Assembly (NCBI RefSeq): GCF_018860665.1
Contig: NZ_JAHKPK010000003.1
Span: 1-64,000, forward strand
DNA length: 64,000 nt
DNA from: Pacificibacter marinus
Lineage (GTDB): Bacteria > Pseudomonadota > Alphaproteobacteria > Rhodobacterales > Rhodobacteraceae
Direction of reading: 5' to 3'
Every line of letters starts with the position of its first letter. Within the stretch, counting starts at the first letter, position 1. Of the stretch, positions 1,341 to 21,901 are shown piece after piece. The notes under the pieces were generated by a model, which made no database searches, was not told the DNA's origin, and saw only the letters and a list, made by a program, of their open reading frames with translations. The translations under genes were made by a program, and so were the position numbers.

Positions 1341-2474
1341 CTATTTGTTGCCCTGCCCCAAAAGAGGGGCGGAACGATCCTCTGATTTGATGCTGCGCGA
1401 AAACTTGATCGGCGTGCCAAGCCCTGAAATCCCGTCTGCCTCGACCTGAAGACCGCGCGCGATAGCTTGCGGGTCGGCTAAGGCTTCGGACACGCGGTTG
1501 ATCGGGCCGGCGGGCACTTTGGCCTGCTCTAACGCGTCAATCAAATCGCTACGTGTGCGCATCAAGGTTTTCGCGGTGATCACATCGGTCAGCACGCTTC
1601 GGTTCGCCACACGGTCTGCATTGGTCGCGAATTTAGGCGAGACCGCCATATCGCCCAAGCCAAGTACGTCGCAAAATGACGCAAATTGGCGATCATTGCC
1701 GCAGGTCACGATCAGATGGCCATCACTGGCGGGGAACACCTGATAGGGCGCGATATTCGGATGAGCGTTGCCAAGGCGTTTTGGCTCAACCCCGCCAATC
1801 AAAAAGTTCGATGCCTGATTGGCCAGCACGGAAATGCCTGTGTCAAACAACGACAGATCCACATGCTGCCCTTTGCCCGACCGCTCCCGTTCTGCCAAAG
1901 CGGCCTGCACACCGATCACACCGTAAAGACCGGTGAAAATATCGATCCAGGCCACGCCAACCTTTTGCGGGTCGCCATCAGGGTCGCCGGTCAAATCCAT
2001 GATGCCCGACATACCTTGGATCAAGAAATCATAACCGGGCTGCAAGGCGCGTGGCCCCGTTTGCCCGAAACCAGTAATTGATGCATAGACAAGTCGCGGA
2101 TTGAGCGCAGACATGCTGGCATAATCAAGTCCATATTTATCAAGCCCGCCGACTTTGAAATTCTCAATCACCACATCTGCCTCTGCGATCAAGGCTTTTA
2201 GGTTTTCCAGATCGTCAGCGTTTTGAAAATCGCAAATGACCGACGCCTTACCGCGATTGGCGCATTGAAAATAGGCCGACACCCGTTCTGTGCCGCCATC
2301 CGGGCGCTCCCGTTCAATGAACGGAGGCCCCCATTGACGGGTATCATCGCCGCTTGGACTTTCGATTTTAATGACCTCAGCCCCCAGATCGGCCAAGGTT
2401 TGACCGATCCAAGGACCCGCAAGAATGCGGGCAAGTTCAACGACCTTAAGGCCTTTTAGCGGTGTCTCATCCAA
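1341..2474 (-). CDS. Class III CoA-transferase (CaiB/BaiF), glutarate-type
   Basis: Family III CoA-transferases move CoA between carboxylates through an aspartyl-CoA thioester. The protein has 377 residues, full length for the family, with the N-terminal [17 protein letters not shown] signature and the catalytic Asp at 178 (AWIDIFTG). It overlaps the end of gcdH by 8 bp. Class III transferases next to glutaryl-CoA dehydrogenase are known in bacteria, and the human relative SUGCT is a glutarate CoA-transferase, so glutarate or a similar dicarboxylate is the likely acceptor (inference). It is the last gene of the 17-gene array. No clear terminator follows; only a weak GC dyad lies near 1313-1334. 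Confidence 0.85.
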
Positions 2475-3678
2475 AGGCTTGCAATCCTGTTTGCGCGCGT
2501 CCCAAGATCAACGCATGAACGTCATGCGTGCCCTCATAGGTGTTCACGGTTTCAAGGTTTTGCGCATGACGGATCACGTGGTATTCGGCCTGAATGCCGT
2601 TGCCGCCGTGCATATCGCGTGCCAAGCGCGCAATATCCAAGGACTTGCCACAGTTGTTGCGTTTGATCATCGAAATCATCTCAGGCGCGAATTTTCCTTC
2701 GTCCATCAAACGGCCCACGCGCAGGCTGGCCTGCAGGCCAAGGGCGATCTCGGTTTGCATATCAGCCAGTTTTTTCTGGAACAATTGCGTGGCCGCCAAT
2801 GGGCGACCAAACTGAATGCGATCCATACCGTATTGATGCGAGCGGAACCAACAGTCTTCAGCCGCGCCCAAGACGCCCCAACTGATGCCATAACGCGCGC
2901 GGTTCAAACAGCCAAACGGCCCACTCATACCTTCAACATTGGGCAGGATCGCATCCTCTGACACCTCGACGTCCTGCATGACAATCTCGCCTGTGATTGA
3001 TGTGCGCAGGCTCAACTTGCCTTCGATTTTCGGCGCGCTCAAACCCGCCATGCCCTTTTCTAGAACAAAGCCACGCACCTTGCCGCCATGCGCTTCGGAT
3101 TTGGCCCAAACCACGAACACATCCGCGATTGGTGCGTTGGAAATCCACGTTTTGGACCCGACGAGACGATAGCCGCCATCGGTTTTGATCGCGCGGGTGC
3201 GCATCCCACTAGGGTCAGATCCCGCGTCAGGTTCAGTCAGACCGAAACAACCGATCCATTCACCAGCGGCCAGTTTTGGTAGGTATTTTTTCTTTTGCGC
3301 TTCTGATCCATAGGCAAGGATCGGGTACATCACCAAAGACGATTGCACCGACATCATAGACCGATAACCAGAATCCACACGTTCCACTTCGCGCGCAACA
3401 AGCCCATAAGATACATAGCCAGCACCAAGCCCGCCGTATTCTTCGGGCACTGTGACCCCCAAAAGACCCGCCTCGCCCATGCGTTGGAAAATCTCGGGAT
3501 CAGTGGCCTCATTCAAATAGGCTTCTGTGACCCGTGGAGCCATTTCTTCATCGGCAAAAGCGCGTACAGATTCACTGAACATGCGTTCATCATCGGTGAG
3601 CTGATCATCCAGCAAAAACGGGTCTTGCCAATTGAAAGAAGCACCTTTGTGCGTCGTTGTTTTCGCGATGTCATTCAT
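2467..3678 (-). CDS. gcdH: Glutaryl-CoA dehydrogenase
   Basis: A soluble FAD enzyme that oxidises and decarboxylates glutaryl-CoA to crotonyl-CoA. It has 403 residues, usual for GcdH. The acyl-CoA dehydrogenase blocks [31 protein letters not shown] and [14 protein letters not shown] are present. The C-terminal [20 protein letters not shown] is the GcdH signature, with the catalytic base Glu at 382. A GGAG ribosome-binding site precedes the ATG at 3678. Its product enters beta-oxidation through the FadJ-type protein and thiolase upstream in the same array. Its presence suggests that a C5 or alpha-substituted glutaryl intermediate arises in the pathway. Confidence 0.92.
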
Positions 3679-3728
3679 CGTCTTACTCCGTTCATAAGTA
3701 AATGTATCAAGGCGTCCTGCCCCGCGCT

Positions 3729-4754
3729 TTACAGCTTTGTCTCAACAATATTCCATGCGGTCTCGGCACGCAGTCGCGCCAAATGCCCCAACTTCAGCGC
3801 CTTCTCAGAGGCCGCGTTGCCGTCCAAACCGCGCTTGTAAACGCCTTGGATGATGGCCGCGCTGCGAAACAGTGAAAAGACCACGAAAAACAGATGGTTG
3901 GTCACAGGCGCGCGCCCTGCGTATTTGCAGTAAAGATCCAAAAATTCTTGTTCCGTCGGAATACCAAGCGCCTTGTGATCCAACCCCTTCAGGCGTCCTG
4001 TCGGCAAAACATCGGCGTGGTACAACGCGCAGACATAGCCCAAATCCGCCAGCGGGTGACCCAAGGTGCACAGTTCCCAATCAAGCAGGGCCAAGATTTT
4101 CGGATCGTCTCCGCCCGCAATCACATTGCCCGGACGAAAATCGCCATGAACAAGCGCCGCTTCGCCATCTTCGACGACGTTTTCAGGCAACCACTCCATC
4201 AATCTGTCCATTGCCAAAATCGTTTCGGTTTCTGTCGCCTTGTACTGCTTGGTCCAACGCGAAATTTGACGTGTCAAAAAACCATCAGGGCGACCAAAAT
4301 CAGACAGGCCAACAGCATCGACATCCACCGCATGAAGCGCCGCCAGCGAGCGGATAAAATCATCGTAAAACACGCGGCGCTGATCTGGTGTCATCCCCGG
4401 CAAAGACGGGTCTTGGTAGATCGGACCTTTGACCATATCCATCACGTAAAATTCTGTGCCGATCACATCGCGGTCCATACACAATGCCAACATTTGCGGT
4501 ACAGGCACGGAGGTATCGGCAAGCGCTGCCATGACGCGATATTCACGATCAACCGCATGGGCAGAAGGCAATAAAGTCCCCGCAGGTTTCTTGCGCAGAA
4601 CATAGTCTTTGCCCCCTGCCGTGATTTGATAGGTCGGGTTGCTTTGGCCTGCGGTGAATTGGGTCAAAACCATATCCCCCGAAAACCCTTCAACGTTTTC
4701 AGTCAAGTAGCGATGCAACGCTTGTGTATCAAAATCTATCTGCGGCGAACTCAT
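3729..4754 (-). CDS. ACAD10/11-type acyl-CoA kinase (APH fold)
   Basis: A protein-kinase-like (aminoglycoside phosphotransferase fold) enzyme of 341 residues. Visible motifs are a Gly-rich loop region ([11 protein letters not shown]), the LRKKP Lys, the catalytic loop HGDFRPGN at 203-210 and the metal-binding LDWEL with Asp225. Sequence and motif order match the N-terminal kinase domain of mammalian ACAD10/ACAD11 and LvaA of the Pseudomonas levulinate pathway. In those systems the kinase phosphorylates the gamma-hydroxyl of 4-hydroxyacyl-CoAs. It overlaps the upstream fadJ-type gene by 4 bp. Its expected partner, an ACAD11-type dehydrogenase, lies at 11957-13189 in the same array. Confidence 0.85.
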
Positions 4755-6832
4755 GGCTCTGCCCTTTCTACATTTAGGTCGGCGAAAGTGCGGCCTGTGG
4801 CGACCATGTCGCGCAAAAGCTCAGGCACGCGCCAAAAATAAGGGTCTTGGATGGCATAGGCTTCGATACGATTGATCAAGGCCTGCGGCCCGATTTGATC
4901 GGCCAAATGCATCGGACCACCTTTGTGACGCGGAAAGCCGTAGCCGAACAATTGGACCGCATCGATATCAACAGGGCGCAGCGCGATCCCCTCTTGGATA
5001 ACACCAGTGGCTTCCATGATCATCGCTGTAAGACAACGGTCAACGATGTCTTGATGGCTAAACTCTTGCGGCGTCAGACCAAGCGCTTTGCGCTCTGCAT
5101 GCATGATGTCTACCGCGCCAGCGTTTGTCCCCGTTTTCTTAGTGCCCTCGTAGACATAATATCCCGCTTCGGTTTTACGTCCGAACCAACCTTGATCGAC
5201 GATCCGGTCCGCAATCGGCGAATAGCGTTCTTCGGGCGGGCGCGTTGCCGCCTTGCGGTCGCGTGTGGCCTTGGCCACATCCAACCCCGCCAAATCGCCA
5301 ACAGCAAACGGCCCCATGGCAAAGCCAAAGCCCTCAAGCGCTTGATCCACATCCGAAAAATCAGCACCATCCAGAACCAAATATTCGCAAGCCTTGCGAT
5401 AAGTGGTCAAAATACGATTGCCGATGAACCCGTCGCAGACCTCAGAACGCACAGGCACTTTGCGGATCATTCGCGCGACTTCGAACACGGTTGCGGTGAC
5501 TTCAGGCGCAGTTTTTGCCCCAACGACAACTTCCAGTAGACGCATGATATGTGCGGGCGAAAAGAAATGCAGTCCGATAACATCTTGCGGCCGCTTGGTG
5601 GCTTCAGCAATTTCATTTACATCCAAGTAGGACGTGTTGGTCGCCAAAATACAGCCCTGTTTGCATACGGCATCGAGCTTGGCAAAAATGCCGGTCTTGG
5701 TCGCCATGTCTTCAAAGATCGCCTCGATCACCAGATCAACGTCAGACAGCGCCGTAATATCAGTCACGCAAGACAATGCACCAATGGCTGCGGCATGACT
5801 GTCAGCTGTCAGCTTGCCACGTTTGAGCGCCCCAGTCAGATTGGCCTCAATCGCCTTTTGCGCCCGCGCGGCGGCTTCAACTTGCGTCTCGATCAAAGTC
5901 ACAGGACGCCCTGCGATCAAAATCGCCGTGGCAATACCGACGCCCATAGTTCCGCCGCCGACAACACCGACCGTCTCAACAGTCCGTGTCTGCGCCCCGC
6001 GTTCTGGGATTTTGGTCGTCGCACGTTCAGCAAAAAAGGCATGGACCAATCCAGCGCGTTCTTCACCTTGCATTAATTCCATGAACAAGGCGCGTTCGCG
6101 TTTTAAACCTTCATCAATAGGCAAGGTTGCGGCTTCAATTGCATCAATCGCACGCTGTGGTGCGGTCAATCCCTTTGCGTATTTTGCGCGGGCCGCAGAA
6201 AGTGCTGCGTCATCAGCCATGACGGTTAGATCATCGGTGGGTCGTGCCGTCAGATTACCAGCCAAAATATCACGCGCAGCCATTAGTCCTGCATCGCGCG
6301 GATCGCCTTGGTCAAGACGCGCGATGATGCCCAGCTCCAGCGCTTCACTGTCCGCCACATGGCGGCCCTTGCAGATGATATCTATGACGGGCGCAATCCC
6401 TGTCAAACGGGTCAAACGTTGGGTGCCCCCAGCCCCTGGCAGCAACCCAAGCGTCACTTCGGGCAGTCCCACTTTGACGCCTTCGATCCCCACCCGCAGA
6501 TGGGTTGCAAGCGCCAGTTCCAGCGCGCCACCAAAGGCCACGCCATGCAGCACAGACACAACAGGTTTCGCGCTGTCATTGAGTGCCTTCAACAGATCCG
6601 GCAAGGTCGGTGTTTCCGCAGCCCGCGCGAAATCTTTGATATCCGCGCCCGCCGAAAACAAACGCCCCTCACCGTACAACACAATCGCGCGCACTGAAGT
6701 GTCAGCGACAAGCTCAGCCAGCGCGTCAAACACAGCAGACCGCAAGGCAACGCCAAGTGCATTCACAGGTGGCTTTGTCAGGCAAATCAATCCGATATCG
6801 CCATCTCGTTCTACACGTACGATGTCACTCAT
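4751..6832 (-). CDS. FadJ-type enoyl-CoA hydratase/3-hydroxyacyl-CoA dehydrogenase
   Basis: A bifunctional beta-oxidation enzyme of 693 residues. The N-terminal crotonase domain carries both catalytic glutamates (Glu105 in GGALELAL, Glu125 in GLPEVTLG). The dehydrogenase domain starts near 287 with GVVGGGTMGVGIA for NAD binding, followed by LHFFSPAHIM with the catalytic His. It should hydrate trans-2-enoyl-CoA and oxidise the 3-hydroxyacyl-CoA for the thiolase encoded just upstream, whose stop overlaps this start by 4 bp. The length fits the shorter FadJ/PaaC-like alphaproteobacterial form rather than FadB. Chain-length specificity cannot be read from the sequence. Confidence 0.9.
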   Translation of the reverse strand: MSDIVRVERDGDIGLICLTKPPVNALGVALRSAVFDALAELVADTSVRAIVLYGEGRLFSAGADIKDFARAAETPTLPDLLKALNDSAKPVVSVLHGVAFGGALELALATHLRVGIEGVKVGLPEVTLGLLPGAGGTQRLTRLTGIAPVIDIICKGRHVADSEALELGIIARLDQGDPRDAGLMAARDILAGNLTARPTDDLTVMADDAALSAARAKYAKGLTAPQRAIDAIEAATLPIDEGLKRERALFMELMQGEERAGLVHAFFAERATTKIPERGAQTRTVETVGVVGGGTMGVGIATAILIAGRPVTLIETQVEAAARAQKAIEANLTGALKRGKLTADSHAAAIGALSCVTDITALSDVDLVIEAIFEDMATKTGIFAKLDAVCKQGCILATNTSYLDVNEIAEATKRPQDVIGLHFFSPAHIMRLLEVVVGAKTAPEVTATVFEVARMIRKVPVRSEVCDGFIGNRILTTYRKACEYLVLDGADFSDVDQALEGFGFAMGPFAVGDLAGLDVAKATRDRKAATRPPEERYSPIADRIVDQGWFGRKTEAGYYVYEGTKKTGTNAGAVDIMHAERKALGLTPQEFSHQDIVDRCLTAMIMEATGVIQEGIALRPVDIDAVQLFGYGFPRHKGGPMHLADQIGPQALINRIEAYAIQDPYFWRVPELLRDMVATGRTFADLNVERAEP

Positions 6833-8028
6833 TGATCAGCTCCGTCCATCCGTTCAATAATCATCGCAATGCCTTGACCAAAGCCAATGCACATGGACAA
6901 ACAGGCATAGCGCCCTTGGGTTCTTTCCAACTGGCGCAGTCCTGTCAGGATCAATCGCGCCCCCGATGCACCCAGTGGGTGACCAATCGCGATGGCCCCG
7001 CCATTGGGATTTATGCGGCTGTCGTCATCCGCCAAACCAAGCGCCGCGTTGCAGGCCAAGACCTGCGAGGCGAAGGCTTCGTTCACTTCGATCACGTCCA
7101 TATCTGCCAGTGTCAGCCCCGCACGCGTCAAAGCTTTGGGGATGGCAAACGCTGGCCCGATCCCCATCACGCGAGGGGCAACCCCTGACACAGCACCCGC
7201 CAAAATACGGGCACGCGGGATACCAAACCCACGCGCGCCAATGACCAGAGCAGCAGCCCCGTCATTGATGCCCGACGCATTGGCAGCCGTCACGACGCCA
7301 CCGTCAAACAAGCTGCGCATACTGGCAAGTTTTTCCAAATTCCCTCCGGGCCGCGGGTGTTCATCCACCTCAACCGTGGTCACGCTGCGCTTGGGGCATT
7401 TGACCTCAATCGGTGTGATTTCATCTTTGAAAAAACCGTCCGCGCGTGCAGCTTCGTATTTGGATTGGCTCGCCAAGGCATAGACGTCACAGGCCGCACG
7501 ACTGATGTCGAACTCTGCCGCCAAATTGTCTGCCGTTTGTGGCATCGTGTCCGTTCCAAAGGCGGCACCAAAGGTCGCATTCGGGAAAGGTTTGCCTGCT
7601 GTGGCATCATGTATTTCCACCTGCCGTGACCACGCAGTGCCAGATTTTGACATCACCAATGGCGCACGGGTCATGCTTTCAACGCCGCCAGCCACCAACA
7701 AAGCGCCATCGCCAAGCGTAACAGCGCGCGCCGCATCCAGCGCCGCAGACAGGCTTGAGCCACATAAGCGATTGACCGTTTGCCCGCCTACGGTGTCAGG
7801 CAGCCCCGCCAAAAGCGCCGAGAACCGCGCCATGTTGCGGCTGTCTTCGCCGGATTGGCTGACATTGCCCATAATCACGTCTTCGAATTGATCCAGTGGA
7901 AAGTCACCTCGCGCCAGCAAGGCCCGAATGACATCCGCCATCAAATCGTCAGGACGTATGCCCGCCAAGGCACCGCCATGACGGCCAAAGGGACTGCGCA
8001 GCCCGTCGTAAATATATGCATCAAGCAT
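6829..8028 (-). CDS. Acetyl-CoA acyltransferase (thiolase)
   Basis: Degradative thiolase of 399 residues that cleaves 3-oxoacyl-CoA with CoA. The nucleophilic Cys89 (NRLCGSS), His350 (GGAIAIGHPLGASGAR) and Cys380 (CIGFGQG) are all present. The N-terminus (YIYDGLRSPFGRHGGALA) resembles 3-oxoadipyl-CoA thiolases of the PcaF/PaaJ group, so a dicarboxylyl-CoA substrate is possible. This would agree with the nearby glutaryl-CoA dehydrogenase. It overlaps the fadJ-type gene and follows the aldehyde dehydrogenase gene by 12 bp, so it is probably co-transcribed and coupled. Confidence 0.9.
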   Translation of the reverse strand: MLDAYIYDGLRSPFGRHGGALAGIRPDDLMADVIRALLARGDFPLDQFEDVIMGNVSQSGEDSRNMARFSALLAGLPDTVGGQTVNRLCGSSLSAALDAARAVTLGDGALLVAGGVESMTRAPLVMSKSGTAWSRQVEIHDATAGKPFPNATFGAAFGTDTMPQTADNLAAEFDISRAACDVYALASQSKYEAARADGFFKDEITPIEVKCPKRSVTTVEVDEHPRPGGNLEKLASMRSLFDGGVVTAANASGINDGAAALVIGARGFGIPRARILAGAVSGVAPRVMGIGPAFAIPKALTRAGLTLADMDVIEVNEAFASQVLACNAALGLADDDSRINPNGGAIAIGHPLGASGARLILTGLRQLERTQGRYACLSMCIGFGQGIAMIIERMDGADQ

Positions 8029-8040: not shown

Positions 8041-9501
8041 TTATGGCGCTGAGAATTTTCCCGCGGCCTGCATCTTTTCGATGGAGGGCATGGATTTGAT
8101 CTCAAGAAACTCTTCCAGTCCGATGAGACCACCTTCGCGGCCATTGCCGGACCGTTTGTAACCCCCAAGCGGTGCGCCAAAACTGGTGCCCTGCCCGTTG
8201 ATCCCGATATTGCCTGCGCGAATTTGCGCAGCAACTCGCGCCGCACGGCTGGCACTGCCAGTTTGGACATAGGCGGCAAGGCCATAGTCGGTGTCATTGG
8301 CAATTGCGATGGCGTCTTCTTCGGTCTCAAACGGGATAATGCACAGCACAGGCCCGAAAACCTCTTCACGCGCGATGGTCATATCATTGCTGACATCCGC
8401 AAAAACTGTTGGACGCACGAAATAGCCCACCTCAAAGCCATCAGGACGGCCAAGCCCTCCCGCCACCAAACGCGCGCCATCATCGATGCCCACTTGAATG
8501 AGGGATTGAACGCGTTCGAATTGCGCTTTGTTGGCCAACGGTCCGATATGTGGGCCCTCTTTGGCAGGATCATCAATCGGTTGCGCGCTGGCCTGTTTAG
8601 CCACCATATCCACCACTTGATCGTATATGCTGCGTTCCACCAACATACGTGTCGGGGCGTTACACCCTTGACCTGTGTTCATAAAACACCGCGCTGTCGA
8701 GGCCGTCACACAGGTCTGCAAATCGGCATCCGCAAACACGATGTTCGGGGATTTTCCACCCAGTTCAAGCGTCACGCGTTTGATCGTCTCGGCAGCATCA
8801 CGGGTAACCATGGCACCAGCACGGGTTGAGCCGGTAAAGGATAACATCGCAATGTCTGGATGGCGCGACATGGCCGAGCCAACGGTTGGACCATCACCAA
8901 AGACAAGATTGAAAACGCCAGCCGGAAAGCCCGCCTCATGCATGAAGTCCGCAAACAAAGCCGCAGATATTGGTGTCAATTCAGACGGTTTCAAAACACA
9001 AGTCGCCCCCGCTGCAAGTGCGGGCAGAACTTTCGGCACAATCTGAAAGATCGGCCAGTTCCAAGGCGTGATCAGACCACAAACACCAATCGGCTCTTTG
9101 TGCATGATGTCCCCGTTGGACAGGGTTTCAGTGCTTTCAAGTTCTTCCAAAGCTGCGATAAATTGATCGACATGGCGTGAGGCACTGCCCGCTTGGGCGT
9201 TGCGCGACAAGGTGATCGGCGCGCCCATTTCAGACGAAATCGCCTGTGCCATTTCCTCATTTCGATCAATCATCACCTTTTGCAAGGCACGAAACAACGC
9301 GATGCGTTCGGCTTTGGTTGTTTTTGAATAGGTCTTGAAAGCCTTGGACGCGGCTGCAACGGCATCATCCACATCAGCCGCAGAGCCCAAAGTCACTGTG
9401 CCGATCTGCGCCTCGGTCGCGGGGTTGATGATGGGAAAGTCGCGCCCATCAGATGAGGAAACCCAAGCGCCGTTGATGTATTGTTTATCTAGCGTTTTCA
9501 T
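8041..9501 (-). CDS. NAD(P)-dependent aldehyde dehydrogenase
   Basis: Aldehyde dehydrogenase superfamily, 486 residues. Cofactor and catalytic residues are present: Asn147 in PWNWP, Glu246 in ELGGK and the nucleophile Cys280 in NTGQGCNAPTR. The ATG at 9501 is chosen because a longer frame to 9651 would cover most of the upstream gene and adds a non-homologous tail. It would oxidise an aldehyde to the free acid. In this array the aldehyde probably comes from the GMC oxidoreductase, and the acid would be activated by a CoA-transferase. The NTGQGC variant (Gly before Cys) occurs in a subset of the family and does not remove any catalytic residue. Confidence 0.9.
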   Translation of the reverse strand: MKTLDKQYINGAWVSSSDGRDFPIINPATEAQIGTVTLGSAADVDDAVAAASKAFKTYSKTTKAERIALFRALQKVMIDRNEEMAQAISSEMGAPITLSRNAQAGSASRHVDQFIAALEELESTETLSNGDIMHKEPIGVCGLITPWNWPIFQIVPKVLPALAAGATCVLKPSELTPISAALFADFMHEAGFPAGVFNLVFGDGPTVGSAMSRHPDIAMLSFTGSTRAGAMVTRDAAETIKRVTLELGGKSPNIVFADADLQTCVTASTARCFMNTGQGCNAPTRMLVERSIYDQVVDMVAKQASAQPIDDPAKEGPHIGPLANKAQFERVQSLIQVGIDDGARLVAGGLGRPDGFEVGYFVRPTVFADVSNDMTIAREEVFGPVLCIIPFETEEDAIAIANDTDYGLAAYVQTGSASRAARVAAQIRAGNIGINGQGTSFGAPLGGYKRSGNGREGGLIGLEEFLEIKSMPSIEKMQAAGKFSAP

Positions 9502-9511
9502 TACCTTATAC

Positions 9512-9892
9512 CTACAGCATGTCGTGCTCTTCGAGCACGTTGCGCGCGTGGCGGAAACATTCCAAACCTTGGGGAACACCACAGTAAATACCGATAATGT
9601 GCAAAATCGCGCGGATTTCTTCTTTGGTGACACCGTTTTTGATGGCTCCACGACAATGGATTTCCCATTCGGTCATTTTGCCAAGGGCCGCCAACATCGT
9701 CAGGTTCAACATCGAACGGGTCTTGTGGTCGATCGCTTCATCGCCCCAGCCAAAGCCCCAGCACCAAGCGGTCATGGCCTCTTGGAACGGCAGTGAGAAA
9801 TCATCAGCCGCAGCCAGATTTTTCTCGACATATTCAGCGCCCACAACGGCCTTGCGGTTTTTCAGGCCTTCTTCGAATAGTTTTTCGTCCAT
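9512..9892 (-). CDS. Carboxymuconolactone decarboxylase-like protein
   Basis: A 126-residue all-helical protein of the PcaC/AhpD superfamily. The typical block IHCRGAIKNGVTKEEI followed by GLECFRHARNVLEE resembles gamma-carboxymuconolactone decarboxylase; the CxxCH redox pair of AhpD is absent. The ATG at 9892 has a GGAG ribosome-binding site and is preferred over an upstream start at 9940, which would run into the neighbouring coding region. No other protocatechuate-branch gene is present, so a real 4-carboxymuconolactone substrate is doubtful. A decarboxylation or lactone step specific to this pathway is a reasonable alternative. Confidence 0.8.
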   Translation of the reverse strand: MDEKLFEEGLKNRKAVVGAEYVEKNLAAADDFSLPFQEAMTAWCWGFGWGDEAIDHKTRSMLNLTMLAALGKMTEWEIHCRGAIKNGVTKEEIRAILHIIGIYCGVPQGLECFRHARNVLEEHDML

Positions 9893-13189: not shown

Positions 13190-13234
13190 ACCGGGTCTCC
13201 TATTCAAATTCTTTGTTAATCAATGCGGGTCCGT

Positions 13235-14005: not shown

Positions 14006-15216
14006 TTACGGGCTTCCTTTCGAATTTCGGCAGGCTCATCGCCCATACGCAATTGCAAACGCGCGCCGGTATAAGGGTGGGCTTCGGCGACGTCTTCGTC
14101 CAGTTCGACGCCGATACCGGGGGCGTCTGGAACGATGACATGGCCGTTTTCCCAACGGATAGGGGATTTAAGAATTTCAGCGTGGAAACCGCCCCATTGC
14201 TCGATGCCTTCCATGATCAGGAAGTTGGGCGAACAGGCAGACACTTGGATATTGGCTGCCCCCACGATGGGACCACAGAACAAATGCGGTGCGATTTGCG
14301 CATGAAAGGCTTCGGCCATCGAGGCGATTTTCTTAGCTTCCAAAATGCCACCAACGCGGCCCAAGTTCGGCTGCAAAATCGCGGCGGCGTCTTGGCGCAA
14401 AAGCTCGGCAAATTCGTATTTCGTACACAGGCGTTCGCCGGTAGACACAGGGATCGAAGTGTTTGCCGCAACCCGCGCCGTACCGGAAATGTAATCTGGC
14501 GGTGTGGGTTCTTCGAACCACAGCGGATCAGATTTTTCCAACCGCTTGGCCAAACGAATGGCCCCAGCAGGCGTCAATTCGCCGTGGGTGCCGATCAAAA
14601 TATCGCAACGATGCCCGACAGCTTCGCGGATGCGTGCTGTGTAATGCTCTGCAAATTCAAGCGTTTCCATCGACAGTTGACGCGGATCAAAAGCGGTGTA
14701 GGGCCGAGCAGGATCAAATTTAAGCGCCGTAAAGCCTTGTTCGACATATTCAAGCGCGCGCTCTGCTGCGGCATCTGCATTGTCGTAAACCATCTGATTT
14801 GACGCCGCATCAATCGGCGCATTCAGATAGGTGTAACTGCGCAAACGATCCTGTACCTTACCGCCAAGCAAGTCATAGACAGGCTTATCAAGTGCCTTAC
14901 CGATGATGTCCCAAAGCGCGATTTCGATACCACTGAAAATGCCCATAACGGTCGGATCGGGGCGCTGCGAGAAGCCCGCAGAATAGACATGACGGAAATG
15001 ACGTTCGATGTTGAACGGGTTGGCGCCCACGAAATGACGCTCGAACATATCGTCAACCATGGCGACCAAGGCTTTGGGGTGAAACGGCACGCCGTAAATC
15101 TCGCCGTAACCTTTGATGCCGGTGTCCGTTGTGACCCGAACAAAGACCCAGTAAGGCCCGCCCCGATGAATGGACGGATTGGCGACAACAAAGGTTTTGA
15201 TGTCTTTGATCTTCAT
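14002..15216 (-). CDS. Enolase-superfamily (mandelate racemase/MLE) enzyme
   Basis: 404 residues with the N-terminal capping domain (GIKGYGEIYG, then SGIEIALWDIIGKAL) and a barrel domain. Candidate active-site residues are Lys166/Asp168 (LKFDPA), His211 (IGTHGE), Glu235-236 (FEEP), Glu261 (STGERL) and His311 (APHLF). The pattern is closest to the sugar-acid dehydratases of the mannonate/galactonate type, which remove water after abstracting an alpha proton. The usual metal-binding Asp two residues before the His is Gly209 here. This may define a distinct subfamily, or the ligand may be displaced. Substrate unknown; it overlaps both neighbours by 4 bp. Confidence 0.8.
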   Translation of the reverse strand: MKIKDIKTFVVANPSIHRGGPYWVFVRVTTDTGIKGYGEIYGVPFHPKALVAMVDDMFERHFVGANPFNIERHFRHVYSAGFSQRPDPTVMGIFSGIEIALWDIIGKALDKPVYDLLGGKVQDRLRSYTYLNAPIDAASNQMVYDNADAAAERALEYVEQGFTALKFDPARPYTAFDPRQLSMETLEFAEHYTARIREAVGHRCDILIGTHGELTPAGAIRLAKRLEKSDPLWFEEPTPPDYISGTARVAANTSIPVSTGERLCTKYEFAELLRQDAAAILQPNLGRVGGILEAKKIASMAEAFHAQIAPHLFCGPIVGAANIQVSACSPNFLIMEGIEQWGGFHAEILKSPIRWENGHVIVPDAPGIGVELDEDVAEAHPYTGARLQLRMGDEPAEIRKEARK

Positions 15217-16820
15217 GCGATACGTTCCTTTAGAATTAAGTCCGCGGCTTTTTCACCAATCATGATGCAGCCCGCGTTGGTATTGGCCGACACGAGGGTC
15301 GGCATGATTGAAGCATCGGCAACCCGCAGCCCCATGATGCCATTCACCCGCAAATCGGGCGCAACAACCGCGCCGGCATCCGCGCCCATGCGACAGGTTG
15401 AACTGGGATGGAAAATGGTTGACCCATTGGCACGCACATAATCGAGAATCTCGGCGTCGCTTTGCACGGCATCACCAGGCACAATCTCATTGGCGATATA
15501 GTCACTGAGCGCCGGTTGCTCGGCCACGGTGCGCACCAGTTTCATACCCGCCACCATCACGTCGCGGTCTTTTGCAGCCGTTAAATAATTGGGTTGGATC
15601 GCGGGCTTGGCACGGTGATCTGCCGACATGATCCGCACATGGCCACGGCTTTCAGGGCGCAATTGACACATGGTCACGGTGAAGCCCGAAAAGTCATCGA
15701 GCTTACGCCCGCGTGTGGCAGACGAAAAGCGCATGAAATGGAATTGCACGTCTGGCGTGGCGGCGTCTTGGTTGGTTTTCGCAAACACGCCGACTTGGCC
15801 TGCGGACAAGGACAAAGGCCCACCGCGATCTTTCAACCAACGTAAAGCAGAACGCACTTGGCCGACCATTGATCCCGCCTCGTCATTGACGGTGACAGGC
15901 TGGCTGCACAGGTATTTGCTGGAACAAGTGTAGTGATCTTGCAGGTTTTCACCCACATCAGGCAGATCGTGCTGCACCTCGATGCCGTGCTCTTGCAACA
16001 ATTCACCATTGCCGATGCCAGACAGTTGCAAAATCTGCGGTGAATTGATCGCACCTGCGGACACAATCACCTCGTGACGTGCCCGAAAGCTACGTGTCAC
16101 ACCGTTTTGATCGACCTCGACGCCTGTTACACGACGATCTTCAATGATCAATCGACGCACAAGGCTGTCGGTTTGAATGTCCAGATTTTTCCGCCCCTTG
16201 GCGGGACGCAGATAGGCCGTCGCCGCAGAACTGCGCAAGCCCTTGTGGGTGGTAACGTGAAAGTAGCCCGCGCCTTCTTGGTCGCGTCCATTATAGTCGG
16301 GGTTTGCCCGAATACCGGCTTGGGCCGCAGCCTCGATGTAGGCGTCACACAAAGGATGCGCGCTGGCACGGCTCACACTGAGCGGGCCGTCCGTGCCATG
16401 AAACCCATCGTCAAGATCATCCATCGCTGTGCCTTCAGCGCGGCGGAAATAGGGCAGCACATCATCATAGCCCCAGCCCGTACAACCAAGCTGGCGCCAG
16501 TGATCAAAATCTTGGCTTTGACCACGCGCATAGACCAACCCATTGATTGAACTGCACCCGCCCAAAACCTTACCGCGATGCCAATCAAACACACGCCCAT
16601 CAAGATCAGGTTGAGTTTTGTAACCCCAGTTGATCTTAGGATTGTACATCGCTTTGTAATAGCCAATCGGGATGTGTATCCATGGATTGCTGTCTTTCGG
16701 CCCCGCCTCAAGCAGCAAGACACGGATGTCCGCGCGCGCCGACAGACGGTTGGCAATCACGCAGCCCGCAGAGCCAGCACCGACCACCACGTAATCATAT
16801 TCTGCATCAAATTTTTGCAA
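15213..16820 (-). CDS. GMC-family FAD alcohol oxidoreductase
   Basis: Glucose-methanol-choline family, 535 residues. The FAD-binding GAGSAG is at 14-19, with the family signatures [18 protein letters not shown] and [15 protein letters not shown]. The C-terminal active-site pair is His471 (HPSSTCRMG) and Asn513/515 (SANTNAG). It resembles AlkJ/choline-dehydrogenase-like enzymes that oxidise primary alcohols to aldehydes. The start is taken as TTG at 16820, because an AAGGGG site lies 6 bp upstream and the first residues then lead directly into the FAD fold. It overlaps the ABC ATPase gene by 14 bp. A longer frame to 16952 lacks homology. Confidence 0.85.
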
Positions 16821-18453
16821 GGGTATCCCCTTCGTCAAAGACTGGCATGTCCCAGTTTTGACCCGGTTGAGCTGACAAAAGCGCCTTCGTGTAATCGTGA
16901 CTGGGCGCGTTGAAAATCTGCGACACCCCGCCCCGTTCAACAACAGAGCCATATTGCATCACCAGCACTTCGTTACAGATTTGCGCCGCGACCCGAAGGT
17001 CATGGGTGATGAAAATCACCGTCAGGCCAAGCCGATCCCGAATGTCGTTCAACAGGTGCAAAACCTCGCGCTGGATCGACACATCAAGCGCCGATACGGC
17101 TTCATCCGCGATCAAGACTTTGGGCTGAACAACCAGCGCACGCGCGATACACAAGCGTTGGCGTTGCCCACCTGAAAACTGGCTTGGGAAACGGTTCACA
17201 GAGTCATGCGGCATACGCACGATATCGAGCAATTTATAGACGCGATCCCATGCTTCTTTGCGTGGGATGCCAAAGTTAATCGCCCCTTGAATCAGCTGAC
17301 TGCCGATGGTGCGGCGTGGGTTGAGCGAACCGTAAGGATCTTGAAACACGATCTGGATGTCTTTGCGATGGCTGCGCAATTCCGACCGCGATTTGGCGGC
17401 AAAATCAACGCCAGAGATATTGATCGCACCTGAGTCAGGCTCGATCAATCGCATCAGACAGCGTACAAGCGTGGTTTTACCTGATCCAGATTCGCCAACG
17501 ATCCCAAGTGTTTCGCCGCGTTTAACTTGGAAAGACACATTGTTCACCGCCGTCACAGTGCGCGATGGTTTGAACATACCTGTGCTGGTGGTGAACGTTT
17601 TGTTCAAACCCTGCACATCAATAACAACAGGGTTTTCATTTGCCTCAGGGGTGGTTTCTTCGGTCATCGGACGCGGCACCGCATCGATCAACGCGCGGGT
17701 GTAGGGGTGCTGCGGATTGTTCAGAACTTCGTCAGCCGTGCCTTGTTCGACGATTTCGCCGTGGCGCATCACAACAACACGGTCCGCAATCTCTGCGACC
17801 ACGCCAAAGTCATGAGTGATGAACATAATGCCTGCGTCGTGGCGTTCATTCAGTTGCTTCAACAACACCAAAATCTGCGCTTGCGTTGTCACATCCAGTG
17901 CCGTTGTCGGCTCATCCGCGATCAACAATTTCGGGTCCAGCGCCAGCGCCATCGCGATCATGATGCGTTGACGTTGCCCGCCTGACAGTTGATGCGGAAA
18001 GGCATCATACAAACGCTTTGGATCTGGCAAGCGCACTTCTTCAAGCAGACGCATGACCTCAGCACGACGATCAGCCGCGCTCAGATTGCGATGAATGCGA
18101 AACACTTCTTCGATCTGCGCGCCGACAGTGTAGGCAGGGTTGAGGGCCGTCATCGGCTCCTGAAAAATCATCGCCATTTGGTCACCGCGCATGGCGTTGC
18201 GTTCTTTGTTGCTCAGCTTCAAAACGTCACGACCATCAAAATCAATCGATCCGCTGGTGACTTTCAAGCCAGGCGACAACAAGCCCATCGTCGCCAAAGA
18301 GGTAATGGATTTTCCAGAGCCGGATTCCCCCACAACACAAAGGATTTCACGGGGGCGCACGTCAAAGGAAATGCCGGTAACGGCGTTTTTTCGGTCCAAT
18401 TTGACCGGCAGACCAACAGTGAGGTTACGAATAGAAAGGACGGGATCAGCCAT
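16807..18453 (-). CDS. Fused dipeptide-type ABC transporter ATPase (DppD-DppF)
   Basis: 548 residues holding two ABC ATPase domains in one chain. The first has Walker A GESGSGKS, signature LSGGQRQR and Walker B LLIADEPT. The second has GESGSGKT, FSGGQRQR and VLIADEAVSALD. Each is followed by the oligopeptide-family C-terminal extension (HPYTRALIDAVP; HDYTKALL). The second domain has Ala-Val in place of Pro-Thr after the catalytic Glu, which is common in such fusions. ATG 18453 lies 4 bp after the permease stop and has an AGGA site. It powers uptake with the two permeases and the binding protein upstream. Confidence 0.92.
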   Translation of the reverse strand: MADPVLSIRNLTVGLPVKLDRKNAVTGISFDVRPREILCVVGESGSGKSITSLATMGLLSPGLKVTSGSIDFDGRDVLKLSNKERNAMRGDQMAMIFQEPMTALNPAYTVGAQIEEVFRIHRNLSAADRRAEVMRLLEEVRLPDPKRLYDAFPHQLSGGQRQRIMIAMALALDPKLLIADEPTTALDVTTQAQILVLLKQLNERHDAGIMFITHDFGVVAEIADRVVVMRHGEIVEQGTADEVLNNPQHPYTRALIDAVPRPMTEETTPEANENPVVIDVQGLNKTFTTSTGMFKPSRTVTAVNNVSFQVKRGETLGIVGESGSGKTTLVRCLMRLIEPDSGAINISGVDFAAKSRSELRSHRKDIQIVFQDPYGSLNPRRTIGSQLIQGAINFGIPRKEAWDRVYKLLDIVRMPHDSVNRFPSQFSGGQRQRLCIARALVVQPKVLIADEAVSALDVSIQREVLHLLNDIRDRLGLTVIFITHDLRVAAQICNEVLVMQYGSVVERGGVSQIFNAPSHDYTKALLSAQPGQNWDMPVFDEGDTLAKI

Positions 18454-18457: not shown

Positions 18458-19351
18458 TCAATTCCTGTTCTCAGGGGCTGTGACATCACGGATGCCGTCA
18501 CCCAAAAGGTTAATTGCTAGGATCAACAAAAAGAGCGCTGTCCCTGGAATGGCGATCAGCCAACCGTCGAAAAACATCAGGCCTTTGGCCTCAGAAATCA
18601 TCAGCCCCCAGCTGGGATCCGGCGGTTGAACGCCAAGACCAAGAAAGGACAAAGCAGCTTCAAGCAGGATCGCATGCGCCATTTCAAGCGTCGCAATAAC
18701 GATGAAGTGGTTGAGGATATTGGGCAAAACTTCGACGAATAGAATACGACGGGTCGTGCTGCCCAAGGCTTCCGCTGAGGCGACGAAATCAAGGCCGCGT
18801 ACTTGCTGTGTGGCGCTGCGCATCACGACAGCGAAACGGTCCCAGATCAGCAAACCCAGCACCCAGATGACGACGGTCAGCGATGATCCCATCAGGCTCA
18901 CCACCGCCAAGGCCACCAAGACAACCGGCATGGACAGGCGTGTGGTGATCACAAAGTTGATCACGTTATCGACGCGGCCGCCGAAGTAGCCTGCACAGAC
19001 ACCCAAAGTCGTGCCGATCACGCCGGAAATCAGCATTGCCGAGAACCCGATCATCAGCGAAATCCGTGCGCCGTAAATCAAGCGTGATAGATAGTCACGC
19101 CCCAAATGGTCCGTGCCCAGAATGTGGTCCCAAGTCGTTTTAGGACTATCAAACCAAACCGGCGGAATAAGTTTACGAGATAGAATTTGCTCGTAAGGAT
19201 CATGCGGCGCCAACATCGGCGCAAAAATCGCGATAAAGATAATCGCAAAAACGACAAAGGCACCAAACAGAACACCACGATGATTGAGGGCCTGCCGCAA
19301 GACCTGCTTGGAGGGCGACGTATGTGCGGAAGTGGAAACGGGAGTGGTCAT
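18458..19351 (-). CDS. ABC transporter permease (DppC type)
   Basis: 297-residue inner-membrane permease of the dipeptide/oligopeptide/nickel family. The N-terminal cytoplasmic tail leads to a first membrane helix (VLFGAFVVFAIIFIAIFAP), a periplasmic loop with the family DHLGRDYLSRLIYGAR motif, then the core helices and the EALGSTTRRILFVEVLPN coupling (EAA) loop. The ATG at 19351 is 2 bp after the DppB-type stop. A TTG two codons earlier would give the usual 4-bp overlap and cannot be excluded. Family members carry peptides but also opines, glycosides and other small organics, so the name does not fix the substrate. Confidence 0.9.
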   Translation of the reverse strand: MTTPVSTSAHTSPSKQVLRQALNHRGVLFGAFVVFAIIFIAIFAPMLAPHDPYEQILSRKLIPPVWFDSPKTTWDHILGTDHLGRDYLSRLIYGARISLMIGFSAMLISGVIGTTLGVCAGYFGGRVDNVINFVITTRLSMPVVLVALAVVSLMGSSLTVVIWVLGLLIWDRFAVVMRSATQQVRGLDFVASAEALGSTTRRILFVEVLPNILNHFIVIATLEMAHAILLEAALSFLGLGVQPPDPSWGLMISEAKGLMFFDGWLIAIPGTALFLLILAINLLGDGIRDVTAPENRN

Positions 19352-19353
19352 GA

Positions 19354-20271
19354 TCAAGAAATCCTAATCCGAGGGTCCAGCCAAGCGTTCAGAACATCTG
19401 CCAAAAAAGTCAGCATAATGTAGAACACGCTTAAAACGAGGACGATGGCTTGCATCATCGGTAGATCCGCACGTTGGATCGACTCCCAGGCGAGAAAGCC
19501 CAGTCCGTTGACCGCAAAGATTGTCTCGATCACGATGGAACCGCCAAGCATGAAACCGAATTGCACGGCCGCCAATGACACCACCGGAATGATCGCATTG
19601 CGCAGCGCATGTTTAAACAAGATCGAAAAGCCGCTGGCCCCTTTGGCCCGTGCGGTTCTGATGTAATCCGAGCGCAGCACTTCAAGCATGCCTGCACGGG
19701 TCAGACGCATCACGCCGGGAGTGATAAAGTACCCAAGGGCAATAGACGGCATCACAAAATGCGCCCAAGTGTCAGTGCCGGAGACTGGCAAAATGCGCCA
19801 ATTGATCCCGAACCAAAGCATCATCGTCAGCGCGAACCAAAAACTTGGCATCGCTTGCCCGACGACGGCCACAGTCAAAGCGAACCGATCAAGCAGGCTA
19901 TTGGGGCGGATCGCGGCCACAACGCCCAATGGAATGGCAAGCACCAGCGCGAATATCAACGCGGACAGACCAAGCGTCATTGTCGTTTTCAATCGTGCGA
20001 AAATTTCAATCGACACGGGCTGGTTCAGATACAGTGATTGCCCGAAATCCCCCTGCGCCGCGCGTCCGAGCCACGACATGAACTGAACGGGGATCGGCCT
20101 GTCATACCCGTAGTATTCTCGAATACGTACGATATCAGCCTGTGTTGCGTTTTCACCGGCCACAGCAATGGCAGGATCGCCTGTCAAGAACGTCATGGAA
20201 AACGTCATCGCAGACACCGTTAGGACAACCAATAAGGCCGTCACCAGTCGTTTAATGAAAAAAGCTATCAC
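19354..20271 (-). CDS. ABC transporter permease (DppB type)
   Basis: 305-residue inner-membrane permease that pairs with the DppC-type protein. It begins with the characteristic membrane helix (FIKRLVTALLVVLTVSAMTF), contains TFLTGDPA and YGYDRPIPVQF, which are typical of DppB/OppB N-termini, and has the coupling loop RTARAKGASGFSILFKHALRN. About six membrane segments can be read. It follows the binding-protein gene after a 100-bp gap that holds a GC hairpin, so it is probably expressed at a lower level than the binding protein. Confidence 0.9.
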   Translation of the reverse strand: MIAFFIKRLVTALLVVLTVSAMTFSMTFLTGDPAIAVAGENATQADIVRIREYYGYDRPIPVQFMSWLGRAAQGDFGQSLYLNQPVSIEIFARLKTTMTLGLSALIFALVLAIPLGVVAAIRPNSLLDRFALTVAVVGQAMPSFWFALTMMLWFGINWRILPVSGTDTWAHFVMPSIALGYFITPGVMRLTRAGMLEVLRSDYIRTARAKGASGFSILFKHALRNAIIPVVSLAAVQFGFMLGGSIVIETIFAVNGLGFLAWESIQRADLPMMQAIVLVLSVFYIMLTFLADVLNAWLDPRIRIS

Positions 20272-20312
20272 AGTATCAAGCCCGTTTTGTTTGAGAAAAG
20301 TGAGGCGACACT

Positions 20313-20338
20313 CCCCCGATGGCCCAAGGGCATCGGGG
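20313..20338 (-). promoter_or_regulatory. Intercistronic hairpin after the binding-protein gene
   Basis: An inverted repeat CCCCGATG...CATCGGGG, with additional GCCC/GGGC pairing and one bulged base, lies between the solute-binding-protein gene and the first permease gene. No run of T follows, so it is more likely an RNA-stabilising or partial attenuation structure than a full terminator. Such structures usually give the binding protein more transcript than the membrane components. Confidence 0.55.
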
Positions 20339-20371
20339 AAGGATCATCGACTTCGTTCGAGTGTGTTTTGC

Positions 20372-21901
20372 CTAGTTCCAGGTTGCTTCGAAAAAGCGTG
20401 GAATTTCATCCGACGTCGGTGTGAAATTCAGGTCTTTCGAAAACGCGTAGTATTTTGCGTAGGTAAACATCGGTAACCAATAGGCTTCTTCGGCGATAAT
20501 ACCCAAGGCCTCGGCATAGGCTTCCTTGCGGACGGCACTATCAACAGATGTATCACCGCGCGCCAAAGCTTCGGCCGTACGTGGATCTTTGGCTGGATCA
20601 TCAGCACCGCCAGAGAAGAAATGCGGCGTGATCGCGCCCACATCAGGAATAGACCCAGAGCCCCAAGTCATGTGGTTGATCGGAGTCTTACCTTTATGCG
20701 TCAGATCAAGAAGGCTTCCGTACTGCATCCAGTTCAAATTGGCACGAATGCCAACAGCGGCAAGATCACCGATAACCGCTTCAGTGAATTCACGCTGACG
20801 GTAACCATACAGATCAAACTCAAATCCAGCAGGATAACCGGCCTCAATCAAAAGCGCGCGGGCTTTGTCTGGGTCATAGTCGTATTGCTTTACATCTTGC
20901 GTACAGCCAAACTGATCAGGGTGACAGGCGGAGTGAATCACAGTGGACGCAGGACCAACCAATTCAATCGCGATGGCTTCGCGGTTGATCGCGTGTGACA
21001 CGGCCTGACGCACGCGTTTGTCGGTGAAGAAATCCTGACCAGAATCCCCATCGACATCAAACGCCATATAGGAAATGCGCAGAGTCTTTTCGTTTACGAC
21101 AGAAACCTGCCCACTGTCTTCCATCCGCAGAGCCTGCTCTTTAGGGACATCCCAAATCCAGTCCAGACCGCCTGTTAGCAATTCAGCAAGCTGGGTGTTG
21201 GATTCAGAAATCGTCCGGTAACGGATGTTTCCAATTTCAGGCGTGCCTTTAGGGCCACCTTCAAAATAGGCGTCATTGCGCTTCCAAAGAATGGATTTGC
21301 CAGTTTGGGAGTCGGCAACCATGTAAGGCCCTGTCCCCACAGGCGGCACCGAGCTATAATCTTTGCTGCCATCAGCGCCCGTTGGCGCATTGTCGTAATG
21401 CCCAGACGGCATGATCGAAATTTCGTTGGACAAATAAGAAAAGGCCAGCGGGCTTGGGGCGTTCAATTCGATACGCACAGTATAGTCATCGATTTTCTCT
21501 GCAGACTTCATCCAGTTATAGATAGAGGCCGCAGGAACACCGTTTTCTTCATCCAACAAGAAATTGATGGTGTAGACCACATCATCCGCGTCGAATGTGC
21601 TGCCGTCGTGAAACACGACATCTTCGCGCAGCTTAAATTCAACGGCCATATTGCCGTCCCATGTCCAGCTTTTCGCAAGCAGCGGGTCGAATTCACCTGT
21701 TTCAGAGTTGAACAAGACAAGGCCGTCCCACCCCATTTGCCCCATGATCACCAATTCGCGCGTCACACTAAAATACGGATCGATGACTGCGATTTCTTTA
21801 TCAGTTGCCCAGTTCAGCGTATCGTCTGATTTACCTGCAAATGCAGGCACAGCAAGCGACGCCGCGAGGGCTCCAGCGAGTGCCAGTTGTAGATGTTTCA
21901 A
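20372..21901 (-). CDS. Family-5 extracellular solute-binding protein of the ABC transporter
   Basis: 509-residue periplasmic binding protein of the DppA/OppA family. The N-terminal signal peptide has a predicted cut after AFA at about residue 22. The mature start DDTLNWATDKEIAVIDP and the DGLVLFN and LAKSWTW..VEFKLREDVVFHDG blocks are typical. It is the first gene of the 17-gene minus-strand array and captures the substrate for the permeases and fused ATPase downstream. A divergent LysR gene starts 206 bp away. Family 5 proteins bind peptides, opines, sugars and various amphiphilic compounds, so the ligand remains open. Confidence 0.9.
   Translation of the reverse strand: MKHLQLALAGALAASLAVPAFAGKSDDTLNWATDKEIAVIDPYFSVTRELVIMGQMGWDGLVLFNSETGEFDPLLAKSWTWDGNMAVEFKLREDVVFHDGSTFDADDVVYTINFLLDEENGVPAASIYNWMKSAEKIDDYTVRIELNAPSPLAFSYLSNEISIMPSGHYDNAPTGADGSKDYSSVPPVGTGPYMVADSQTGKSILWKRNDAYFEGGPKGTPEIGNIRYRTISESNTQLAELLTGGLDWIWDVPKEQALRMEDSGQVSVVNEKTLRISYMAFDVDGDSGQDFFTDKRVRQAVSHAINREAIAIELVGPASTVIHSACHPDQFGCTQDVKQYDYDPDKARALLIEAGYPAGFEFDLYGYRQREFTEAVIGDLAAVGIRANLNWMQYGSLLDLTHKGKTPINHMTWGSGSIPDVGAITPHFFSGGADDPAKDPRTAEALARGDTSVDSAVRKEAYAEALGIIAEEAYWLPMFTYAKYYAFSKDLNFTPTSDEIPRFFEATWN

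Follow-up and report, generated by a model that had tools for sequence, protein, structure and literature searches.

Bacterial enzyme pairs that phosphorylate a 4-hydroxyacyl-coenzyme A (CoA) and then eliminate the phosphate are known mainly from levulinate catabolism, for which the LvaA/LvaC pair was reportedly described by Rand in 2017. According to later papers, LvaA and LvaC convert 4-hydroxyacyl-CoA to 2-enoyl-CoA (PMC11342911, PMC12440821), and ACAD11-type pairs, bacterial ones included, likewise phosphorylate 4-hydroxyacyl-CoA and eliminate the phosphate to give 2-enoyl-CoA (PMC11342911). The mammalian kinase/eliminase was assigned recently, in papers of 2024–2025 (PMC11342911, PMC12440821). 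Here we describe a locus in which such a putative pair is embedded in a 17-gene catabolic array with a divergent LysR-family regulator gene. It lies in the first 64,000 nucleotides (the window) of contig NZ_JAHKPK010000003.1 of a Pacificibacter genome (assembly GCF_018860665.1). All of its enzyme types are known; their combination appears to be new, and no description of it was found in the literature searched, most subscription papers being outside our reach. As a whole, the array may convert a 4-hydroxy, probably dicarboxylic, acyl-CoA through 2-enoyl-CoA to glutaryl-CoA and acetyl-CoA, with a glutaryl-CoA dehydrogenase (GcdH) finishing the route, a model that we stop just short of calling probable.

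The array encodes two proteins of the acyl-CoA dehydrogenase (ACAD) family, both of which a preceding sequence-only reading had assigned to beta-oxidation. The family assignment stands, but the roles differ: one protein (ACADa) appears to be GcdH, encoded with its own CoA-transferase, and the other (ACADb) pairs with a kinase (APH). ACADb resembles the C-terminal half of ACAD11 (PDB 8v3u, 466 bits), with 404 of its 416 residues aligned; a 14-residue stretch and the segment ADGPDEVH are identical in the alignment, as is HHCMR. The upstream Arg, the HCMR motif and the catalytic Asp are all identical to those of ACAD11; PMC12440821 reports that these residues are a specific feature of ACAD10/11 and LvaC and that activity requires them. 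APH in turn resembles the N-terminal kinase half of ACAD11 (8v3v, 269 bits; also 3dxp, 359 bits) and has the APH fold and the HGD...N and LDWE motifs looked for in the ACAD11 kinase and LvaA. Judging from homology and motifs, APH and ACADb very probably act as a 4-hydroxyacyl-CoA kinase and its phosphate-eliminating partner.

The array thus shares with the Pseudomonas putida lva operon and with ACAD10/ACAD11 an APH-fold kinase and an atypical ACAD for the step from 4-hydroxyacyl-CoA to 2-enoyl-CoA, and its gene for a short-chain dehydrogenase/reductase (SDR) adjoins that of ACADb. Unlike lva, it uses a CoA-transferase in place of a CoA ligase: among the 17 genes there is no acyl-CoA ligase (LvaE), no unassigned small gene and no LvaB to be seen. 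Over and above the lva set, it has an ABC importer, a GMC-family alcohol dehydrogenase/oxidase, an aldehyde dehydrogenase (ALDH), an enolase-superfamily protein (ENO), a HIBADH-family dehydrogenase, a PcaC-like protein (CMD), a dedicated FadJ and thiolase (THIO), and a glutarate cassette. Some of these genes accompany relatives of the pair in other genomes. One co-directional run in Bosea sp. NBC_00550 encodes relatives of ACADb (63% identity), SDR (55%), APH (45%), a second SDR, FadJ (42%) and THIO (37%), the 55% SDR relative lying between the ACADb-like and APH-like genes. Sphingobium herbicidovorans has the order FadJ-ACADb-APH (41, 66 and 46%) and Methylobacterium aquaticum has ACADb-APH (69 and 47%). 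Through these co-occurrences the 4-hydroxyacyl pair is linked with SDR, FadJ and THIO.

We then considered how far the array is conserved. The sequence-only reading had described a block that takes up a compound, oxidises alcohol and aldehyde, loads CoA and performs beta-oxidation, with an ACAD11-type kinase, and had proposed a search for the same gene order in relatives, poor conservation being what would speak against it. The search supported a single catabolic block that is real, conserved and rare. Its gene order is more than chance, because the locus in P. marinus is colinear and the order is kept in other genera. With the second CoA-transferase (CoATb) as marker, 2 of the 20 genomes of the genus scored, the window's own counted, the congener copy being 98% identical. 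Five of 394 family genomes passed an E-value of 1e-75, the array-like ones being the window's own and that of another family member, G647 (77%), with the other three at 36–40%; 29 of 385 class genomes passed the same threshold, none above 52% but the window's own. None of 495 plasmid records with a CoATb relative reached 60% identity. One pattern-seeded scan of a species-genome collection, a scan that reaches no further than close relatives, returned seven loci: P. marinus, Mameliella sp. MMSF_3455 and Paracoccus sp. JM45 (74–98%), two fragments of one Neomegalonema metagenome-assembled genome, and distant loci from SAR116 (49%) and Burkholderiales (36%). P. marinus is colinear with the window at about 92% DNA identity over 1336–36769 (36769 being the end of the stretch compared), its array proteins being 95–100% identical. 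All 17 genes and the LysR gene occur in the same order in G647 and Mameliella, and JM45 keeps 14 of 14 visible genes in order, from the permease PermB through APH, plus the end of the gene for the solute-binding protein (SBP). The block is rare, yet wherever these three genera could be read its order is kept; rarity and kept order together would fit lateral transfer of a specialised trait. The Neomegalonema copy (L066, L068) is broken: SBP breaks off at residue 113 and continues as ENO from residue 345, CoATb jumps from residue 154 to 315, and ALDH and FadJ are absent, which decay and assembly error fit equally. A reduced core without GMC, ENO, ALDH and FadJ was dropped for this reason.

Motifs expected for catalysis were scanned in five arrays, among them that of the window and the closely similar one of P. 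marinus. Those of ACADb and APH are present in all five, as are the hydratase, thiolase, ALDH, SDR and HIBADH motifs and the catalytic Asp motif FDM[A/S]TG of CoATb.

The evidence that ACADa is a glutaryl-CoA dehydrogenase is strong. Against PDB entries named as such it scores 606 bits (3gnc) and 545 bits (1sir), compared with at most 239 for other named families; its top match, 4w9u (722 bits), is named just acyl-CoA dehydrogenase. The resemblance to the enzyme extends over the full length, well beyond that to other ACADs, and the sequence has the catalytic motif TYEGT, which is found in four of the five arrays, the miss being JM45, whose array has no gcdH. The CoA-transferase gene CoATa adjoins gcdH, and its Asp motif is present in 4/4 arrays that have it.

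The two genes form a separable cassette, which in other genomes has a LysR gene of its own (gcdR). Among six congeners read at gcdH, gcdR-gcdH-CoATa stands free in five (G213, G198, G199, G200 and G208); the sixth, G215, has a 45% CoATa relative and no GcdR match at its gcdH region. At the array tail, gcdH-CoATa was seen in four of the six arrays read there (window, P. marinus, G647 and Mameliella), with order and adjacency as in the free cassette. In G647 and Mameliella it follows APH with gcdR retained and divergent. The window and P. marinus lack gcdR; there the pair is joined to the array, with gcdH directly after APH (50 bp in the window). A second gcdH lies elsewhere in the Mameliella genome; the array copy alone was seen in G647 and P. 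marinus. A quick tree was built from 43 GcdH sequences, 29 of which came from the family search, namely those whose loci had been retrieved. It places Mameliella and G647 as sisters within a set that also contains four congeners, and the window and P. marinus branch apart. Two independent joinings, at which the trees hint, were dropped as a firm finding since a single clade of all four array GcdH sequences, 15.8 log units worse, survives the approximately unbiased test (p 0.236); separate joinings of array and gcdH are possible.

The link to dicarboxylates comes from the thiolase and FadJ. The best THIO relative in the plasmid collection (68%) is in Paracoccus kondratievae, where it is adjacent to a 56% FadJ relative and followed by PimC-like and PimD-like genes (best families PimC, 441 bits with a cutoff of 624, and PimD, 224 bits with a cutoff of 653). 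This neighborhood indicates dicarboxylic substrates. In Rhodopseudomonas palustris the pim operon serves pimelate and longer dicarboxylates; the pim-type plasmid locus of P. kondratievae shares with the array adjacent THIO and FadJ relatives in the same order. The array differs in having no CoA ligase and no PimC/PimD pair among its 17 genes (both ACADs score at most 70.4 bits against TIGR03204 and 55.6 against TIGR03203), and its enoyl-CoA would come from 4-hydroxyacyl-CoA. The pimelate link comes from that one locus, because three more THIO relatives that we read (55–62%) sit in beta-oxidation clusters without an equally similar FadJ, and many of the listed relatives are annotated as plain 3-oxoadipyl-CoA thiolases. 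As for the exit, thiolysis ending in glutaryl-CoA has precedent, because in a study by randomly barcoded transposon sequencing the fitness of beta-proteobacterial GcdH mutants was strongly impaired on dicarboxylates of C7 and C9 (PMC12543098).

Based on these comparisons, the locus can be read as a LysR-controlled catabolic operon built from modules. An Opp/Nik-type ABC importer would take up an oxygenated compound with a primary alcohol, which GMC and then ALDH would oxidise from CH2OH to aldehyde and carboxylate. ENO, HIBADH and CMD might dehydrate the product, shift its redox state and perhaps open or decarboxylate it. CoATb would load CoA, and SDR would set the 4-hydroxyl. At this point homology and motifs argue strongly that APH phosphorylates the 4-hydroxyacyl-CoA and ACADb eliminates the phosphate to give 2-enoyl-CoA, which FadJ, by homology, would hydrate and oxidise; THIO, of 3-oxodicarboxylyl-CoA type, would split off acetyl-CoA. 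The other thiolysis product would be glutaryl-CoA, oxidatively decarboxylated to crotonyl-CoA by GcdH, with CoATa swapping CoA between succinate and glutarate; for these two proteins the enzyme identity is strong, and their place in the route is a conjecture. In short, an Lva-like 4-hydroxyacyl module would feed a pimelate/glutarate-type exit. We lean slightly towards the exit through glutaryl-CoA. The simplest carbon balance would then be a C7 4-hydroxydicarboxylate, 4-hydroxypimeloyl-CoA, a chain length that we regard as doubtful. A more specific version, in which the array is a dedicated 4-hydroxydicarboxylate route from an unrecognised marine compound bearing a terminal alcohol, with a split bacterial ACAD11 leading into pimelate-type thiolysis and with the regulator lost as 4-hydroxyacyl module and glutarate cassette were fused, is unlikely to hold in full.

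Several findings weigh against the glutaryl-CoA route. Three of its enzymes score below family cutoffs: THIO with 593.2 bits against PRK08131 (3-oxoadipyl-CoA thiolase; equivalog cutoff 622; PhaA, 252), CoATa with 495.5 bits against its best family NF052585 (succinate-glutarate CoA-transferase; cutoff 750; next family 300.9), and CMD with 119.2 bits against TIGR02425 (PcaC, 4-carboxymuconolactone decarboxylase; cutoff 155.7). The roles given to ENO, HIBADH and CMD are guesses. The ACAD11 pocket is described in PMC12440821 as largely hydrophobic, which disfavours a dicarboxylate. According to PMC6692424, LvaB is a 12-kDa partner of LvaA in P. putida, and lvaB is absent from the P. citronellolis lva region analysed; no counterpart of LvaB is evident among the 17 array genes, the rest of the genome not having been searched for it. 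Moreover, gcdH is a common housekeeping gene, present in 130 of 149 family genomes; the window's gcdH is the sole copy found in its 95%-complete genome and may serve other routes. In Paracoccus JM45 the 3.7 kb beyond APH contain no gcdH, that gene sitting elsewhere, and the broken Neomegalonema copy has none in 6.6 kb, with gcdH on another contig. The earlier view of the array as the complete route for a single substrate is not borne out: gcdH-CoATa is separable and missing from the JM45 copy, and no order of steps emerged for the upper half (GMC, ENO, ALDH, HIBADH and CMD).

The separable cassette with its own LysR gene, the two arrays without it and the wide occurrence of gcdH would all suit a C6 chain, in which 4-hydroxyadipyl-CoA becomes 3-oxoadipyl-CoA, THIO yields succinyl-CoA and acetyl-CoA, and gcdH-CoATa is a mere neighbour for the catabolism of lysine or another source of glutarate; THIO is, after all, nearest to a 3-oxoadipyl-CoA thiolase. 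Yet the cassette recurs at the array tail in three genera, the window and P. marinus have lost gcdR and keep gcdH close behind APH, and Mameliella holds an extra gcdH besides the array's, so that we consider the C6 version unlikely, though a serious contender. Using GcdH differently, a C5 version would have a 2-hydroxyglutarate-type acid loaded at its distal carboxyl as 4-hydroxyglutaryl-CoA, which APH and ACADb turn into glutaconyl-CoA, GcdH into crotonyl-CoA, and FadJ and THIO into two acetyl-CoA. Each CoA-level enzyme would be used once, ACADa is a GcdH, and decarboxylation of glutaconyl-CoA belongs to the mechanism of that enzyme. However, THIO resembles dicarboxylyl-CoA rather than acetoacetyl-CoA thiolases (593 bits, against 252 for PhaA), and 2-hydroxyglutarate is normally just re-oxidised; this version seems improbable. 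Slightly less probable still are two pathways on one transcript, with GMC-ENO-ALDH-HIBADH acting on a sugar-acid-like compound and the CoA genes on a different hydroxy acid. GMC-ENO-ALDH does exist without CoA genes, on another contig (C9) of the window's genome, in genomes G134 and G006 and in Ensifer adhaerens, but in the array the two groups are interleaved (GMC-ENO-SDR-ACADb-HIBADH-CoATb-CMD-ALDH-THIO) in an order kept in G647, Mameliella and JM45, and the triad is uncommon (3/30 ENO loci).

The free-standing GMC-ENO-ALDH(-HIBADH) units differ from the array in having no CoA-level genes; their proteins are 56–58% (ENO), 61–65% (ALDH) and 40–42% (GMC) identical to the array's. On one side of the C9 unit (49001–69000; GMC 40, ENO 56 and ALDH 62%) lie a 27% HIBADH relative and TRAP-like genes; the opposite side has phosphonate-transport-like genes, and a LysR-like gene is nearby (TRAP, phosphonate and LysR assignments by eye). 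In E. adhaerens a LysR gene adjoins the unit, which is accompanied by an MFS transporter and by a HIBADH relative of 28%. Of the 30 best-scoring ENO loci examined, three, the C9 copy among them, have both GMC and ALDH no more than 1.5 kb away from ENO.

Neither SBP, ENO, CMD nor CoATb led us to a substrate. The best PDB relative of SBP, 5u4o, reaches just 151 bits, so a substrate inferred from it was dropped. GMC matches the PRK02106 subfamily at 618 bits, above its cutoff of 605. ENO departs from D-galactonate dehydratase and the mandelate racemase subgroup: the position of Asp183, a metal ligand of DgoD together with Glu209 and Glu235, is Gly in 34/34 aligned rows. The two metal-ligand Glu and both His are kept, and the position of the Asp partner of the base His varies (Asn in 9 rows, Ala in 24, Asp in 1); PDB entries 4e4u and 4e5t share ENO's GTHG. 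The ENO context was dropped as a guide because 23 of the 30 best-scoring loci, read to 1.5 kb on each side, have no GMC, ALDH or HIBADH relative; three wider neighborhoods read by eye were uninformative. CMD relatives of 71–77% sit on Rhodobacterales and Hyphomicrobiales plasmids among a Rieske oxygenase, an aminotransferase, ALDH, enolase and other genes. That proteins this similar occur in such different surroundings points to a generic chemical role for CMD, and its varied clusters, like the mixed contexts of CoATb relatives (46–52%), gave no substrate to retain. Mevalonate/3-hydroxy-3-methylglutaryl compounds were set aside because the array encodes no HMG-CoA lyase, aromatics and cyclic terpenoids such as camphor because it encodes no oxygenase, and amino compounds because it encodes no pyridoxal phosphate enzyme; polyethylene glycol was also considered and set aside.

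Reading of open reading frames (ORFs) and junctions confirmed the layout given by the sequence-only reading, that is, 17 minus-strand genes, all open, with a divergent LysR gene (Table 1). The 16 junctions comprise six overlaps of 4 bp, one of 8 bp (ACADa/CoATa) and one of 14 bp (ATPase/GMC), six gaps of 4–27 bp, and gaps of 50 bp (APH/ACADa) and 100 bp (SBP/PermB). The earlier limit of 45 bp for all gaps but the 100-bp one was thus slightly low, the rest of that description, hairpin included, being right. The ATPase and GMC starts were re-assigned, and a 4-bp gap and the 14-bp overlap hinge on them; the ALDH frame was corrected to 486 aa, its Aldedh score coming from a longer ORF. The seventeenth gene, for the 126-aa CMD, is easily missed in a 120-aa ORF list.

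The LysR gene starts 206 bp upstream of the first array gene, and its ortholog adjoins the array in G647 (67%) and Mameliella (60%). The strong hairpin between SBP and PermB has about 13 pairs, a minimum free energy of -34.9 and a z-score of -1.9 (9 of 200 shuffles fold as well or better), and no U-run. G647 and JM45 have inverted repeats of other sequence at the same gap (by eye, unfolded); inverted repeats are often found where a binding-protein gene is followed by that of its permease. Sigma-70-like sites fall below shuffle expectation (6 against 11.3 in 1–20000; 1 against 4.5 in 19900–24600); these counts, which are weak evidence, give no sign of internal promoters.

Table 1. Features of the array and its borders in the window.
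Feature	Position	Strand	Basis
LYSR, LysR-family regulator, divergent	22108..23046	+	HTH_1 and LysR_substrate Pfam matches
SBP, family-5 (peptide/opine/nickel type) solute-binding protein	20372..21901	-	SBP_bac_5 1.6e-74
SBP-permease gap with hairpin, 100 bp	20272..20371	-	RNA fold
PermB, Opp/Nik-type permease	19354..20271	-	profile matches
PermC, Opp/Nik-type permease	18458..19357	-	profile matches
Importer ATPase, fused double	16807..18453	-	two ABC_tran stretches; start re-assigned
GMC alcohol dehydrogenase/oxidase	15213..16820	-	GMC_oxred_N and _C; TTG start, re-assigned
ENO, enolase superfamily, mandelate racemase/galactonate dehydratase-like	14002..15216	-	profiles; PDB 4e4u 530 bits
SDR, candidate 4-oxoacyl reductase (LvaD role)	13235..14005	-	family profile; Bosea context
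ACADb, putative ACAD11/LvaC-type 4-phosphoacyl-CoA processing enzyme	11957..13207	-	ACAD11 8v3u 466 bits
HIBADH-family beta-hydroxyacid dehydrogenase	11075..11947	-	profiles; PDB 3obb and 3cky 134 bits
CoATb, class III CoA-transferase, candidate 4-hydroxy acid activator	9906..11078	-	CoA_transf_3
CMD, PcaC-like protein	9512..9892	-	TIGR02425 119.2 bits; CMD Pfam
ALDH, aldehyde dehydrogenase	8041..9501	-	Aldedh 3.8e-158
THIO, 3-oxoadipyl-CoA-type thiolase	6829..8028	-	PRK08131 593.2 bits
FadJ-type enoyl-CoA hydratase/3-hydroxyacyl-CoA dehydrogenase	4751..6832	-	profiles; 56% relative in pim-type operon
APH-fold putative 4-hydroxyacyl-CoA kinase (ACAD11 N-half/LvaA type)	3729..4754	-	3dxp 359 bits; 8v3v 269 bits
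ACADa, predicted glutaryl-CoA dehydrogenase (GcdH)	2467..3678	-	3gnc 606 bits; 1sir 545 bits
CoATa, succinate-glutarate CoA-transferase type	1341..2474	-	NF052585 495.5 bits; PDB 4ed9 496 bits
Left breakpoint of block with IS3-type transposase debris	1..1335		P. marinus colinearity ends at 1336; IS3 match 600-935

On the left, where colinearity with P. marinus stops, positions 1–1335 hold fragments of IS3-type transposase as well as, by eye, one of AraC type, and have no match within the first 6 kb of the P. marinus contig compared. On the other side, 23181–26020 encodes a MauG-like di-haem protein, whose best NCBIfam match is TIGR03981 (His-Xaa-Ser-system-associated; 250 bits against a cutoff of 340), adjoining an FG-GAP/ASPIC-UnbV protein; P. 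marinus, too, has the MauG-like gene next to its array. Further on, 27471–33448 resembles, by eye, an operon for the uptake and catabolism of D-xylose (binding protein, permease, ATPase, kinase and isomerase).

If the proposed route is true, it would extend the 4-hydroxyacyl pair to a larger, probably dicarboxylic substrate, and the operon provides a compact, testable enzyme set that constrains the route. The array also illustrates how a catabolic operon may grow, by the joining on of a pre-existing cassette. Its substrate, if found, would put a name to something on which marine alphaproteobacteria draw for carbon.

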